Notes under the pieces: generated by a model
The model's database searches: none
The model's input: the letters and a program-made list of their open reading frames with translations, nothing else
Told to the model about the DNA's origin: nothing
Position numbers and translations under genes: made by a program
Shown: positions 25,679 to 33,875 of the stretch, piece by piece
How positions within the stretch are numbered: the first letter of the stretch is position 1
How the letters are laid out: each line of letters begins with the position of its first letter
Origin: Bacteroidia bacterium
GTDB lineage: Bacteria > Bacteroidota > Bacteroidia > M30B66
Assembly (NCBI GenBank): GCA_018401705.1
Contig: JAGYKL010000010.1
Location: 1-64,000, forward strand
Length of the DNA stretch: 64,000 bases
Reading direction: 5' to 3'

Positions 25679-27799
25679 TTAATACTCTTCTTCTTTTAAG
25701 TTTTCCATCAAATACCTCGAAATAGTCTTGTAAAGATGTAATCTGTCTTTTCCACGCACGTTGTGCGGATGGCCGGGATAAATCATATAATCAATCAATA
25801 CATCTTCATCAACGCATTGCTTAACCATAAGTTGAGAATGCTGCCAAACAACAACATCATCAACAGTTCCATGAATTAGCATTAATCTATCTTCCAAATT
25901 CTTGGCTGAATTTAGAAGATTCGTCTTCTCGTAACCTTCTGAATTGGTTTGAGGTGTATCCATATACCTTTCGGTATACATTACTTCATACATTTTCCAG
26001 TCAATTACTGGTCCGCCGGCAACGCCGGCTTTAAAAACACCTGGATTATTGCAAAGTAGAGTTGTGGTCATAAAACCTCCGAAACTCCAACCATGAACGC
26101 CAATTCGAGCAGGATTAACCCAAGGCAAAGACATTAAATAATCAACTCCTAACAATTGATCTTCCATCTCGGCTGCACCTAATTGCTTATGAATTACTTG
26201 CTCAAACTCAATACCTCTGTCGGCTGAACCTCGATTGTCTAATGTAAAAACTCCATAGCCTTGCGATGCCATCCAGCTCATCCAGAGATTTCCTCCTCCC
26301 AACCAACGGTTGGTAACCATCTGAGCATGAGGACCTCCATATACATATATTATTACGGGGTATTTTTTTCCTTGCTCGATGTTTCGAGGTTTAAAAAGTC
26401 GACCATTTAAGATTGTGCCATCTTTTGCTTTAACAGACACCAATATAGGTTTTGGCAATGCTTCCATGGCAATCGGGTCTGTTGCTTCAGATATTACATT
26501 TAGCTCCTTACCATTTGCATCATTAAGACTCACTTTTCCAGGAGTTTGCAAGCTGCTATATGTATCAATGAAATAAGTGTATAAGCCATTCCACTGCACA
26601 TTATGAACACCCGAAAGAGTAGTGATTTTTTGGAATTTCCCTTTCAAATCTATTTTTAAACACTGACGATCCAATCCATTATTTGCTGTTGCCATAACAT
26701 ACACCGAGCTAGCAGCAGGATTCATTCCTAAAACATCAGTTACAACCTCATTGCCGATATTAAATTGACGAATCATTTTGCCGTCAAGGTTGTAGAGATA
26801 AAGATGATTATAGCCATTTCGCTCACTTTGCCAAAGAAATTGATCTTTAGAACCGTTTATAAACATAGCAGCATGCTCAGGTTCTACCCATTGAGGATCT
26901 TCCTCAGTGATTAGAGTTTTAACAAATGCGCCATCAGATGAATTATATAGATTTAGATTCATCTTGTTTTGGTCGCGGTTGAGCTCGGCAATTAGCACAA
27001 ACTGCTCGTCTGGACTCCAGCTGATGTTTGTTAAATAGTGATCATCAGGCCCAGCAGTTTTGATATAAACGGTCTTCCCTGAAACTATATCATAAACTCC
27101 AAGCGTTACTTGATGACTTGTTTGACCAGCCATTGGGTACTTAATAGGAGTTTCCTCGGCGGGGATGGAGCTAAGTGAAACCAGAGGGTAATCAGTAACC
27201 ATAGTTTCATCCATGCGATAAAAAGCTAGTTTATTACCTGAAGGACTCCAGAAGGTTCCTTTGGTTATGCCAAACTCTTGGCGGTGAACCGCCGATGCGT
27301 ATACAATTCCATTTCCACCATCATCGCTTAGCTTTAGGTCTTTTCCATTTGAATGAATGAAAAGGTTATTTTCTTTTACAAAAGCAATGTTTTCAGAAAG
27401 CTCGTGTAAATCTACTAGTTCAGCGTCTTTTTGATTCCAGGCTTTATAAACGCCTTGAGTCTTTCCAATACTGTAGAAGTACATCTTTTCTTCAAATTCA
27501 AAAGTAAAACGGTTGCCGTCTATCCAATGAATTGAAGGTATTCTCTTTAAATGAGATTCCAAATCGGCAGGTTTAAAAAGAGTATCTACTTTATTATCAA
27601 CCGCGTTCACCCTAAGATAAGCCGATCTGTCGCTATTAGCATATCCGTAATAATTAGAGTTTGGTATCCACTCTATTCCACGTTGATATTTGGGATTAAG
27701 GTCGCTTCTCTTAAAAATATCGTCAATTGAAAGGGGCTCTTGAGCTGAAGCAGAATATGCAAAGCCTGAAAAAATAAGTAAAATGAGGTGTTTACGCAT
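25679..27799 (-). CDS. Secreted S9 family peptidase (dipeptidyl peptidase IV-like)
   Basis: Exported serine peptidase that probably removes dipeptides, often after proline. The 706-residue precursor begins with signal peptide MRKHLILLIFSGFAYSASAQ; an upstream in-frame ATG at 27820 overlaps the promoter. Residues about 60-430 form the DPPIV N-terminal beta-propeller. The C-terminal alpha/beta-hydrolase domain carries the nucleophile GWSFGGFMTT, the acid in HGTVDDVVVW and the His in YPGHPHNVRG. No T9SS domain is present, so a periplasmic location is likely. Together with the M1 aminopeptidase it suggests peptide scavenging. Confidence 0.95.
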   Translation of the reverse strand: MRKHLILLIFSGFAYSASAQEPLSIDDIFKRSDLNPKYQRGIEWIPNSNYYGYANSDRSAYLRVNAVDNKVDTLFKPADLESHLKRIPSIHWIDGNRFTFEFEEKMYFYSIGKTQGVYKAWNQKDAELVDLHELSENIAFVKENNLFIHSNGKDLKLSDDGGNGIVYASAVHRQEFGITKGTFWSPSGNKLAFYRMDETMVTDYPLVSLSSIPAEETPIKYPMAGQTSHQVTLGVYDIVSGKTVYIKTAGPDDHYLTNISWSPDEQFVLIAELNRDQNKMNLNLYNSSDGAFVKTLITEEDPQWVEPEHAAMFINGSKDQFLWQSERNGYNHLYLYNLDGKMIRQFNIGNEVVTDVLGMNPAASSVYVMATANNGLDRQCLKIDLKGKFQKITTLSGVHNVQWNGLYTYFIDTYSSLQTPGKVSLNDANGKELNVISEATDPIAMEALPKPILVSVKAKDGTILNGRLFKPRNIEQGKKYPVIIYVYGGPHAQMVTNRWLGGGNLWMSWMASQGYGVFTLDNRGSADRGIEFEQVIHKQLGAAEMEDQLLGVDYLMSLPWVNPARIGVHGWSFGGFMTTTLLCNNPGVFKAGVAGGPVIDWKMYEVMYTERYMDTPQTNSEGYEKTNLLNSAKNLEDRLMLIHGTVDDVVVWQHSQLMVKQCVDEDVLIDYMIYPGHPHNVRGKDRLHLYKTISRYLMENLKEEEY

Positions 27800-27817
27800 C
27801 AAATAAGAATAAGAGTT

Positions 27818-27849
27818 CAAACCTATTCAATCCAAACTATACTAACAAA
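27818..27849 (-). promoter_or_regulatory. Promoter of the S9 peptidase gene
   Basis: Read on the minus strand: TTTG (27849-27846), 20-nt spacer, TAGGTTTG (27825-27818). Both elements and the spacing fit the Bacteroidota promoter. The predicted leader is about 12 nt to the ATG at 27799. The heptamer array begins just upstream. Confidence 0.75.
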
Positions 27850-27875
27850 TTGAAGAAGAAGAAAGGATGAAGTAT

Positions 27876-28302
27876 ATCGTAATACGTACAACGTAATACG
27901 TAATACGTACATCGTAATACGTGCAACGTACAACGTAATACGTAATACATATATCGTAATACGCACATCGTAAATCGTAATACGTACAGCGTACAACGAA
28001 ATACGTACAGTGAAATACGTACAGCGAAATACGTACAGCGTACAACGAAATAAGTACAGCGAAATAAGTACAGCGTACAACGAAATACGTACAGCGAAAT
28101 AAGTACAACTTACAACGTACAACGTACATCGTACATCATAATACGCACATCGCACATCGCAATACGTACAGCGTATATCGAAATACGTACAGCGTACAAC
28201 TTACAACGTACATCGTACATCATAATTCGCACATCGCACATCGCAATGCGTACAGCGTATATCGCAATTCGTAAATCGAATTACGTACATCGTAATACGT
28301 TT
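27876..28302. repeat. 61-unit heptamer tandem array
   Basis: The 427 bp divide exactly into 61 heptamers from ATCGTAA at 27876 to TACGTTT at 28296. The common units are TACGTAC, AACGTAC, ATCGTAA, AGCGTAC, AGCGAAA and ATCGCAA. No unit is longer or shorter than 7 bp, so the phase is kept throughout. Blocks of whole units are duplicated: the run beginning AACTTAC at unit 34 recurs at unit 47 with one unit less. The array sits between the S9 peptidase promoter and the end of the large adhesin gene. Because stop codons are rare in this motif, long spurious reading frames cross it. Confidence 0.95.
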
Positions 28303-28336: not shown

Positions 28337-31300
28337 TTAGCGAATTAGAGTTATGGTACCGATAGAAGTTCTTTGCTCACACTGAGTAGTTACCCTAATT
28401 CTATATGCGTAAACTCCCTCTTGAACAAGTTTACCTAAATATGTTCCATCCCAGCCATCTTCGATAGAAGTCCAGCTATAAACAAGTTCGCCCCAGCGAT
28501 TATAAATACTAGCATCTAATTTAGGCTCTCCGGTGGTGTAAACCTGAAACTTCGTGTTGATTAAATCATTATCAGGAGTAAATGAATTAGGAATGTAAAC
28601 CGGATCGTTTTGATAAATAACCATTCTAGCTGTATCTGACTCAATAACATCTCCACAACCGGAAATAACACAGCGAACAACAAGATTATTTAGTTCATTA
28701 ACAGCTTCCGCTTGAAGAACTGGGGTAGAAGAGCCGGAAATAAAACCCTCATCTTCAAGATCTATAAAGTTTCCGACTTCGTCAAGTTGCTGCCATTGAA
28801 AGTTGATGCCTTCGCCTTGAGCTACAGTTTGGAAATTCACTGCCCCTCCAGAACAAGCAACTTGAGAGAAAGGAGAAGCCAACAAAACTGGAATTCCATT
28901 TAGAAAAAGCAGAGCTTCTTCACTAAAAACAGGAACTCCGCATGTGCTATTCACTTCTGCCCGATAAAGGGCATTCTGAAGAGAGACCGGAATATTATTT
29001 ATACTTAATGTTTCTTCTGTGCTTCCCGAATAAGTTCCACTATTAAACACATTAGACCATCCATTTCCTGTATTAACCTGCCATTGAATGTTGATTTCAT
29101 TCTCAACTTCTACAGCAATTTGAACATCTTCGCCTGGACAAACAGGTGGAGGCACTTGAATAAGACTAACCGTTGGAAGAGGGCTAACTGTGAGTGTTGC
29201 AGTTTCTGAATTAACTTGAGTGTTGCAGGCATTAGCAGAGACCATGAAAACTGCTTGGTTCTGATTTAAATTCACTGGATCAACAGTGAGGGTTGAAGTG
29301 CTAACACCTGAAAATCCATTTCCTTCAATAAGATTTGAAAATGTTGCTCCTGCATCAGTACTTATCATCCACTGAAATTCTGGGTTACCAGAAATATCAG
29401 AAAAGAAAATAGCAGATTCTCCTTCGCAACTTGTAACATCAAGCGGACTAAAAATTACTTGTGGAGAAGCTGTAATTTCAAATTCAACAGCATTAGAGTT
29501 CTGAGTAGAGCCACAAATGCCATCTACTTCACATCTAAAAAGATTACCTGCATCAGCTAAAGCTGGAGAAGAAATGGTTAGAGTGGAAGTATTTACTCCA
29601 GTATAAGGGGCTGTTTCGTTTAAGTCGCTATAATTAGCCCCTCCATCTGTTGAAATTTGCCATTGAAAATTCAGATTTGTTCCATTAGCATTTAATGCGA
29701 AGCTTACATCCTGACCTTCGCAGATTGTTTCATTAGTGGGTTGATTTGTGATGTTAGTGTTAGGATTTACAGTAAGAACAACTGCAACTGTAGTAAGATC
29801 ATCAGAACACCCACCGCTTAGTATGCATTGGTAACTTAATCCATTCACGCTTGTTGCAGCTCCAATCAAGTTTAAGGTTGAAGTTTGAGCATCTGAATAG
29901 CCATTTGCATTGTTAACATTATTAAAGCCAGAACCGGAATTGACCTGCCACTGATAGGAGGTAGCTCCGGTTGCACCTACAGAAAAACTTGCTGCTTCAC
30001 CTTGGCAAACAGTAAGAGGAGTTGGTTGTTGATTCACAACAATTTCATCTCCCGGGAGAATTGTTACCTGGGTGGAAATTACTGGAGTTCCACAACCATT
30101 AATTATCACCTGATAAATATTGCCTACAAGGTTAGCCGGAGTTCCTATTATAGTTAGCACAGACGAATTAACACCCGAGTAGGGTGGATTCGATTGAATA
30201 TTACTGAAAGAGGCTCCTCCATTAGTACTAACTTGCCATTGATATGTTAAGCCAGTGCCATCGGCATCAACACTAAAACCTACAGTTTGACCATTACAAT
30301 AATTTTGATCAAAAGGCTGGGTTGTAATTGTGGGACTTGATTGCACTGTTAGAATAGCTGCGTCGGTTGGAACATTTTGTCCACAAGCACCTGAAATAAC
30401 ACATTGATAGAGGTAGCCATTTAAAGAGGCTTGAACGTTTGAAAAACTAAGAGTAGTTGTAGTTGTTCCACTGTAAGCCCCGCCTTGGATTACATTATTA
30501 AATGTTGCTCCTCCATCAGTGCTGACTTGCCATTGGTAAGTGTTACCAGCAACTGCATTACCAACAGTCATGCTGCCATTATCTCCTTCACAAACTGATA
30601 AATCATCGGGGTTAGAGTTGCTGGCACCCGGAATTTGAGTTGCAGTAAAAGTCATTCGAGCTTCTAAAGGACGCTGAAAATATTCAATTACTAAATCAGT
30701 TGGTCCCGATAAACAAATCCCATTGGGATTGGCGGTTGCTGTTGTTTTGAAACTCGTTGAATATTGCTGTTCGATAAAGCTGTTTAGAATCCAGGTAGCT
30801 CCTCCATCAATACTAAACCTAATGCCATCATCTCCCTGAATGGTGAACGTGTAGTATCCCGGAGCAAAGTTTTCTTGTCTAAGTAGTCTTATGCTGAAGT
30901 TTTCAGTAAGTGAACTTCCACAGCCGATGCTAGTGCCATCATTCCAAGTTCCGGGAACACCCCCTGCTGATGATAAATTGATATCAAAACCCAGAGGGTT
31001 GATAACAACATGACCTTGATAATTTGAATTATTGAAAAAGTCCTGAGCAGCAACAATAGCCGGGGTATTTAATGTATTTCCGGTTGTAGGTGTCCATGTG
31101 TAAACATGACCATTCCAATTGCCTGAGCCTTGCGCGTTGGGAGCTATTGGAGCTATTGGTGCTACGTATGGAGTTATTGTTATGAAATTATTTCCACTGC
31201 ATTGAAATAAATCATTGGAAACATATCCAGTGGATGCCCGAATTTTAATTGTGTAATTACTTCCCGGTGGGGTTGCAATAGGAATTACAATGCGCGCAAA

Positions 31301-31609
31301 CAGATTATTGATGTTTCCTGAAAAAATATATGGCCCAAGCTGCCACGTAGTACCATTGTTGGTAGAGAATTCAGAAAATGGTAATACTTGTGTTCCTGTC
31401 GCAAACGAACCGGCTGAATTAGAAAGCAGAGCTTCAATTTGACTTCCTGCCGGTAGGTTCTCAATTTGGTTGACTTTTAATGTAATTGTTCCGCTTGCAC
31501 AAATTACAGGACAAGAATAGGGGACTGGCTCACTCCTTGAAATGTACTGGGCATTTAAGACAACTGCTCCGAATAATAACAGCACAAATATTAGCAACTT
31601 ACGCAACAT
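28337..31609 (-). CDS. Large Ig-like-repeat protein with T9SS type B sorting domain
   Basis: Secreted protein of 1,090 residues. Signal peptide MLRKLLIFVLLLFGAVVLNAQ. Residues about 25-150 form a beta domain, and about 150-335 a PA14-like segment (GDDGIRFSIDGGATW, IEYFQRPLEARMTF). About eight Ig-like repeats of about 85 residues follow, with the recurring core TYQWQVSTDGGATFNNV, SGTTTTTLSFSNV and YQCVISG..CG. The end is the type B, gliding-associated sorting domain (VYIPNSFTPDNDLINTKFQV, YNRWGELVYSWTS, GVYAYRIRVTTQ). It is probably a cell-surface adhesin or glycan-binding protein. Confidence 0.92.
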   Translation of the reverse strand: MLRKLLIFVLLLFGAVVLNAQYISRSEPVPYSCPVICASGTITLKVNQIENLPAGSQIEALLSNSAGSFATGTQVLPFSEFSTNNGTTWQLGPYIFSGNINNLFARIVIPIATPPGSNYTIKIRASTGYVSNDLFQCSGNNFITITPYVAPIAPIAPNAQGSGNWNGHVYTWTPTTGNTLNTPAIVAAQDFFNNSNYQGHVVINPLGFDINLSSAGGVPGTWNDGTSIGCGSSLTENFSIRLLRQENFAPGYYTFTIQGDDGIRFSIDGGATWILNSFIEQQYSTSFKTTATANPNGICLSGPTDLVIEYFQRPLEARMTFTATQIPGASNSNPDDLSVCEGDNGSMTVGNAVAGNTYQWQVSTDGGATFNNVIQGGAYSGTTTTTLSFSNVQASLNGYLYQCVISGACGQNVPTDAAILTVQSSPTITTQPFDQNYCNGQTVGFSVDADGTGLTYQWQVSTNGGASFSNIQSNPPYSGVNSSVLTIIGTPANLVGNIYQVIINGCGTPVISTQVTILPGDEIVVNQQPTPLTVCQGEAASFSVGATGATSYQWQVNSGSGFNNVNNANGYSDAQTSTLNLIGAATSVNGLSYQCILSGGCSDDLTTVAVVLTVNPNTNITNQPTNETICEGQDVSFALNANGTNLNFQWQISTDGGANYSDLNETAPYTGVNTSTLTISSPALADAGNLFRCEVDGICGSTQNSNAVEFEITASPQVIFSPLDVTSCEGESAIFFSDISGNPEFQWMISTDAGATFSNLIEGNGFSGVSTSTLTVDPVNLNQNQAVFMVSANACNTQVNSETATLTVSPLPTVSLIQVPPPVCPGEDVQIAVEVENEINIQWQVNTGNGWSNVFNSGTYSGSTEETLSINNIPVSLQNALYRAEVNSTCGVPVFSEEALLFLNGIPVLLASPFSQVACSGGAVNFQTVAQGEGINFQWQQLDEVGNFIDLEDEGFISGSSTPVLQAEAVNELNNLVVRCVISGCGDVIESDTARMVIYQNDPVYIPNSFTPDNDLINTKFQVYTTGEPKLDASIYNRWGELVYSWTSIEDGWDGTYLGKLVQEGVYAYRIRVTTQCEQRTSIGTITLIR

Positions 31610-33678: not shown

Positions 33679-33875
33679 TCAAACTTCGACAGGCTCAGTT
33701 TGACGTTTACTAATCTAGTCAAACAGAGTCTCCAGTCAAACTTCGACAGGCTCAGTTTGACGTTTACTAATCTAGTCAAACAGAGTCTCTAGTCAAACTT
33801 CTGACAGGCTCAGTTTGACGTTTACTAATCTAGTCAAACAGAGTCTCCAGTCAAACTGAGCTTGTCGAAGTTTGA
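33679..33875. repeat. 57-bp direct repeats closed by an inverted copy
   Basis: Three units start at 33679, 33736 and 33793 (the third has one extra T). Each opens with a 25-bp imperfect palindrome (TCAAACTTCGACAGGC... ending CAGTTTGA) and ends with TCTAGTCAAACAGAGTCTC plus CAG or TAG. The fourth copy of the palindrome, at 33851-33875, is inverted, with one base changed. The array fills the gap between ndk and the S4 gene. Confidence 0.95.

Follow-up and report, generated by a model that had tools for sequence, protein, structure and literature searches.

Tandem repeats with a unit of 7 bp are over-represented in bacterial genomes, according to a passage of PMC4692102 that cites its reference 33 and to a satellites survey (PMC6749651). 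Slippage by the footprint of the polymerase has been suggested as their cause (PMC4692102). MacGregor, in 2015, described TAACTGA and mixed heptamer repeats in Beggiatoaceae, Cyanobacteria and Bacteroidetes, found that long heptamer arrays of Gramella and Aequorivita are missing from the shorter spacers of relatives, and observed indels in 7-nt steps among Cyanothece strains (PMC4679880). The phenomenon of heptamer arrays is therefore already known in bacteria, including Bacteroidota (PMC4679880, PMC4692102, PMC6749651). The sequence-only reading that drew attention to the present array knew of no established role for such arrays in Bacteroidota; that holds as far as a role is concerned, but arrays there had been reported (PMC4679880).

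The array considered here occupies positions 27876-28302 of the window, meaning the whole 64,000-nucleotide stretch of Bacteroidia bacterium contig JAGYKL010000010.1 that was analysed. With its exact 7-bp tandem units, intergenic position, occurrence at multiple loci and period-7 excess, it belongs with the other loci described below among the heptameric SSR. Bacterial heptameric SSR are likewise intergenic, tandem, of period 7, present at many loci per genome and made of imperfect units; the present array differs in its CGTANNN vocabulary and in its unusual length and degeneracy (61 units). It resembles the repeats of PMC4679880 in consisting of heptamers in spacers. In Beggiatoa a single invariant heptamer sits immediately before start codons; the units here are degenerate and have no preferred orientation. 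The array is not a TAACTGA-type putative translational regulator, which has a fixed sense orientation a few nucleotides before a start codon, since the likely start codon is ~76 bp away and the orientation at other loci is mixed. The G-rich heptamers of Xanthomonas and Nostoc are also intergenic and variable in length and sequence between close relatives (PMC4692102). The present units have at most two G and no G-tract, which sets them apart from G-quadruplex heptamers, and no quadruplex is expected. The STRR sequences of cyanobacteria are likewise degenerate heptamers in spacers. Classical STRR units probably differ in sequence from the present array, and CGTANNN is not known to be among them.

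The array and its spacer

The 427 bp of the array split into 61 heptamers in a single phase with zero indels, just as the sequence-only reading had counted them, and the units read CGTANNN on the + strand (heptamer split, Tandem Repeats Finder and a cyclic model). Columns 3, 4 and 6 are near-constant (C in 57, G in 56 and A in 59 of the 61 units). Column 5 is T, A or C in 44, 9 and 8 units, and columns 1 (A/T, 38/23), 2 (A/T/G, 31/19/11) and 7 (C/A/T, 32/24/5) alternate among few bases. The self-identity of the array is 0.60 at lag 7, 0.69 at lag 14, 0.71 at lag 21 and 0.70 at lag 35, whereas lags other than multiples of 7 give 0.13-0.28. In the two stretches scored by the cyclic model, 27873-27998 and 28101-28261, there are 0 phase breaks. 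The array is far above chance, as the same threshold yields no tandem array of period 2-6, 8 or 9 in 464 kb, and it is the longest of its repeat type found in the present analysis.

Tandem Repeats Finder reports super-periods of 21, 35, 42, 49 and 84 bp within the array. A 49-bp (7-unit) block is duplicated at 27979-28107, and an 84-bp (12-unit) block at 28088-28294, the latter also evident in the heptamer split, where its two copies are unequal by one whole unit. The claim that whole blocks are duplicated from units 34 and 47 is thereby confirmed. The block at unit 34 recurs at unit 47 minus one AACGTAC, so a whole-unit indel is visible inside the array.

The array takes up most of a ~537-bp spacer (427 + 110 bp) between two genes on the - strand. 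One, at 25679-27820, encodes a DPPIV/prolyl oligopeptidase S9 family peptidase (Pfam PF00930, PF00326); from its ORF, the likely ATG is at 27799, and the array starts ~76 bp upstream. The other, at 28337-31609, encodes an Ig-like repeat protein with a CHU_C type IX secretion signal (PF13927, PF13585), and its stop is 34 bp away from the array. Two overlapping - strand ORFs, 27823-28155 and 27842-28129 (110 and 95 aa), run across the array and could be mis-annotated as genes. We ascribe them to the scarcity of stops in the repeat and reject a coding array. A phage origin was also rejected, the array having no match in phage records. Elsewhere in the window, at 33679-33857, a 57-bp unit stands in tandem in 3.1 copies that are 97% alike. 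It has inverted halves (TCAAACT...AGTTTGA, CTTCGACAGGCTCAG) and resembles a dispersed palindromic repeat.

Distribution in the genome and its relatives

The sequence-only reading had proposed a search for further arrays in this genome and in related ones, and they exist in both. A nucleotide search with the array returned 18 matches, some of them overlapping, in the 3.74-Mb assembly, and the pattern with free NNN (CGTANNNCGTANNNCGTA) matches exactly at at least 14 loci. With one mismatch allowed, the pattern has 206 matches and its reversed control 15 in the same genome. The total is about fifteen or more heptamer arrays, most of whose units read CGTANNN. In the window, a second CGTANNN array at 1081-1187 is adjoined by an array of another 7-mer (ACTTAAT/ACTAAAT) at 1182-1313, both found by Tandem Repeats Finder and a spacer survey; across 1081-1313, CGTATTA units are followed by ACTTAAT units. 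A 464-kb sample, made up of the window and 20 stretches of which several were picked because they hold arrays, contains 16 tandem arrays at period 7 and 0 at periods 2-6, 8 and 9. The arrays examined all lie between genes, with only repeat-born ORFs overlying them. Both strands carry them, the neighbouring genes may be convergent, divergent or co-directional, and they show no evident bias to a strand or gene arrangement and no evident link with an RNA family (Rfam) or promoter. When the flanks of arrays were compared, they had no common sequence beyond the heptads, save at two neighbouring loci.

Four other genomes of the family that were searched (G004, G006, G007, G008) contain CGTANNN arrays; the pattern search found none in two complete family genomes (G003, G005). 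Across the class, 28 of 198 genomes have at least one four-unit CGTANNN match. In the spacing controls, 10 of 119 genomes have the CGTA core at spacing 6, each at a single place, and 1 of 119 has it at spacing 8. The period spectrum of the same-family loci comprises 27 arrays at period 7, 0 at 3-6 and 8, 1 at 2 and 2 at 9. Stretches from the sister genus carry other vocabularies (AGTCNNN, CTTTNNN, ATTAAGT), again almost only at period 7. Outside the phylum, the Planktothrix agardhii plasmid p1 has a near-perfect CGTAAAT array (L249, 1487-1684) between the DISARM gene drmA and a DUF1998 gene; the hypothetical protein annotated across it is probably a spurious gene. In an IncFII plasmid of Salmonella Bareilly (L250, 600-640), there are about four CGTACAA units beside a point at which similarity to ~480 other plasmids begins.

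The spacer orthologous to that of the array, between the same gene pair in the same order, is 108 bp long in G008 (L025) and 46 bp in G003 (L111), with no heptads in either. Hence the array was either gained in the present lineage or lost in both others, and from these sequences gain would be the simpler. Since gene order at the locus is kept in G008 and G003, we rejected the array as the mark of a rearrangement breakpoint there. In one spacer shared by G004 and G008 with flanks ~95% identical, the orthologous arrays are 14 bp apart in length and several of their units are different, with the phase kept; such a length difference in 7-bp steps is clear in this one pair, the remaining pairs aligning too poorly to count. 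A short array at another G004/G008 locus, upstream of another gene, is identical. Outside arrays, the G004/G008 alignment has no excess of fresh 7-bp duplications in ~3.6 kb of intergenic DNA, a sample too small to decide on such a bias. At L190 and L202, two loci of these genomes, heptad arrays also have as neighbours in the spacers a distinct kind of dispersed repeat, a hairpin of the type CCACGGACTAAAGTCCGTGGCTGCG.

Phase keeping and unit vocabulary

Applied to 18 arrays totalling 2,349 bp, the cyclic model detects 3 phase breaks, of which a single array on contig 8 accounts for two. This is far below what chance indels would leave and accords with the claim that the phase is not broken by frequent indels. 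Unit trees imply ~272 substitutions in 19 arrays, and aligned intergenic DNA of G004 and G008 has 49 indels to 483 substitutions. At face value, that ratio predicts ~27 indels in the arrays. Two provisos apply: substitutions were counted indirectly, from the unit types, which may give too high a figure, and tracts in phase may be easier to detect as arrays. The scarcity of phase breaks therefore supports a phase-keeping process without proving it.

The grammar of four fixed and three variable positions is striking by eye. It was discarded, being not significant once duplicated units are collapsed (column-conservation test, p = 0.46 over 19 arrays and 0.3-0.7 for single arrays). With duplicates collapsed, changes fall across the columns as chance predicts, so block duplication can account for the seeming CG conservation. 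The differences among units comprise 82 transitions and 190 transversions, compared with 206:277 in aligned intergenic DNA. Differences this rich in transversions are unlike simple point-mutation decay.

Each genome has a small vocabulary of its own. Among the loci listed for the present genome, the common triplets are CAA and TTA, each at 9 of 14, and CAT at 8 of 14; in other genomes they are AAT, ATT and ACT (G101) or TTG, TTT and TAA (G006). The Jaccard similarity of triplet sets is 0.28 within a genome, 0.16 to other genomes of the family and 0.10 to other families, and 0 of 2,000 permutations reached the within-genome value, in a test restricted to the listed loci, which had been retrieved by a pattern of constant core and unconstrained triplet. 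This shared vocabulary is not what independent random seeds would give. Strings of 3 or 4 units are not shared between loci in excess (p = 0.09 and 1.0), so these data do not demonstrate plain copying between loci. Three properties measured here were not found in the heptamer-repeat literature compared: that the period is nearly exclusive, that the phase is so rarely broken, and that each genome has its own vocabulary.

Origin and function of the array

On balance, the array is probably a non-coding heptameric minisatellite with fast turnover, grown and shrunk in whole units and most likely without a specific function at this locus. It would have started as a short 7-mer run between the two flanking genes, which are co-directional. 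We infer that slippage was the motor; slippage or unequal exchange would have added whole 7-bp units and multi-unit blocks. The register may be kept because pairing between partly matching units would be productive only in register, and a unit with an off-length indel would pair badly and not spread. For a period of exactly 7, an effect of the polymerase footprint has been proposed (PMC4692102). In favor of a minisatellite are the period-7 excess, the short heptad-free spacers of two relatives, the whole-unit differences both internal and orthologous, the even spread of substitutions over the columns after collapsing, and the presence of arrays on both strands and in all gene arrangements. Against it are the shared within-genome vocabulary, the mostly transversional unit differences, and the lack of a surplus of fresh 7-bp duplications in the ~3.6 kb outside arrays.

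The sequence-only reading had offered either whole-unit gain and loss or a spacing selected for protein binding or DNA bending. The former is borne out by the internal copies and by the one orthologous pair; the latter is not. The data are better matched by a tract that slips or duplicates in whole units than by a protein-binding or RNA element under selection, because the spacer is free of the array in two relatives, no strand or arrangement is preferred, and in one pair the arrays have changed while their flanks remain ~95% identical. We think it quite unlikely that the array binds a nucleoid-like protein that would need to touch the DNA once every 7 bp, 21 bp being two helical turns. The identity peak at lag 21, the absence of strand preference, and the 3 phase breaks set against the inferred substitutions and the intergenic indel ratio are what such an array would lead one to expect. 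But neither place nor unit order is conserved, the fixed core varies by dialect (CGTA, AGTC, CTTT), and both the failed column conservation and the possibly inflated substitution count weaken the case. An RNA element transcribed from the array, such as a small RNA, decoy or structured leader, is highly improbable. The - strand does fold more stably than shuffles (z = -3.2), but the + strand gives z = -1.5, there is no Rfam match, arrays lie in both orientations relative to genes, and self-complementary units such as TACGTA suffice for such stability.

The position of the array ~76 bp upstream of the peptidase gene's likely start codon raises the possibility that unit number tunes expression of that gene. 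The hmw1A/hmw2A promoters of Haemophilus influenzae likewise carry 7-bp tandem repeats ahead of a gene, and there more repeats mean less HMW expression (PMC10127715). That tract lies in the promoter and has a shown effect on expression. Such tracts make a regulatory effect possible, and nothing at the present array points to one: promoter-like sites are no more numerous than in shuffles, arrays also sit in spacers of every arrangement, and the same gene pair does without an array in relatives. A length-variable regulatory tract is therefore unlikely. Very unlikely, in our estimate, is a process, whether mobile or templated in the manner of a reverse transcriptase or telomerase, that writes genome-specific 7-mers into spacers. 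It would account for dispersed loci, on both strands, having a vocabulary in common but no common order of units, for the transversion-rich differences, and for insertion into an otherwise short spacer. However, no enzyme or template came up, short of a gene-by-gene search, the flanks have little in common, and unit-level turnover of old arrays could look alike. We also doubt the broader proposition that a directed process, either an enzyme adding 7-mers of a genome-specific vocabulary or a protein that binds in 7-bp register and selects them, builds and maintains arrays across Bacteroidota spacers. The present genome and its relatives sharpen the question of why tandem repeats in the spacers of bacteria are biased to a unit of exactly 7 bp. 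Any mechanism, whether polymerase slippage, binding or templated addition, must account for the near-exclusivity of the period, the rarity of phase breaks and the genome-specific vocabulary.
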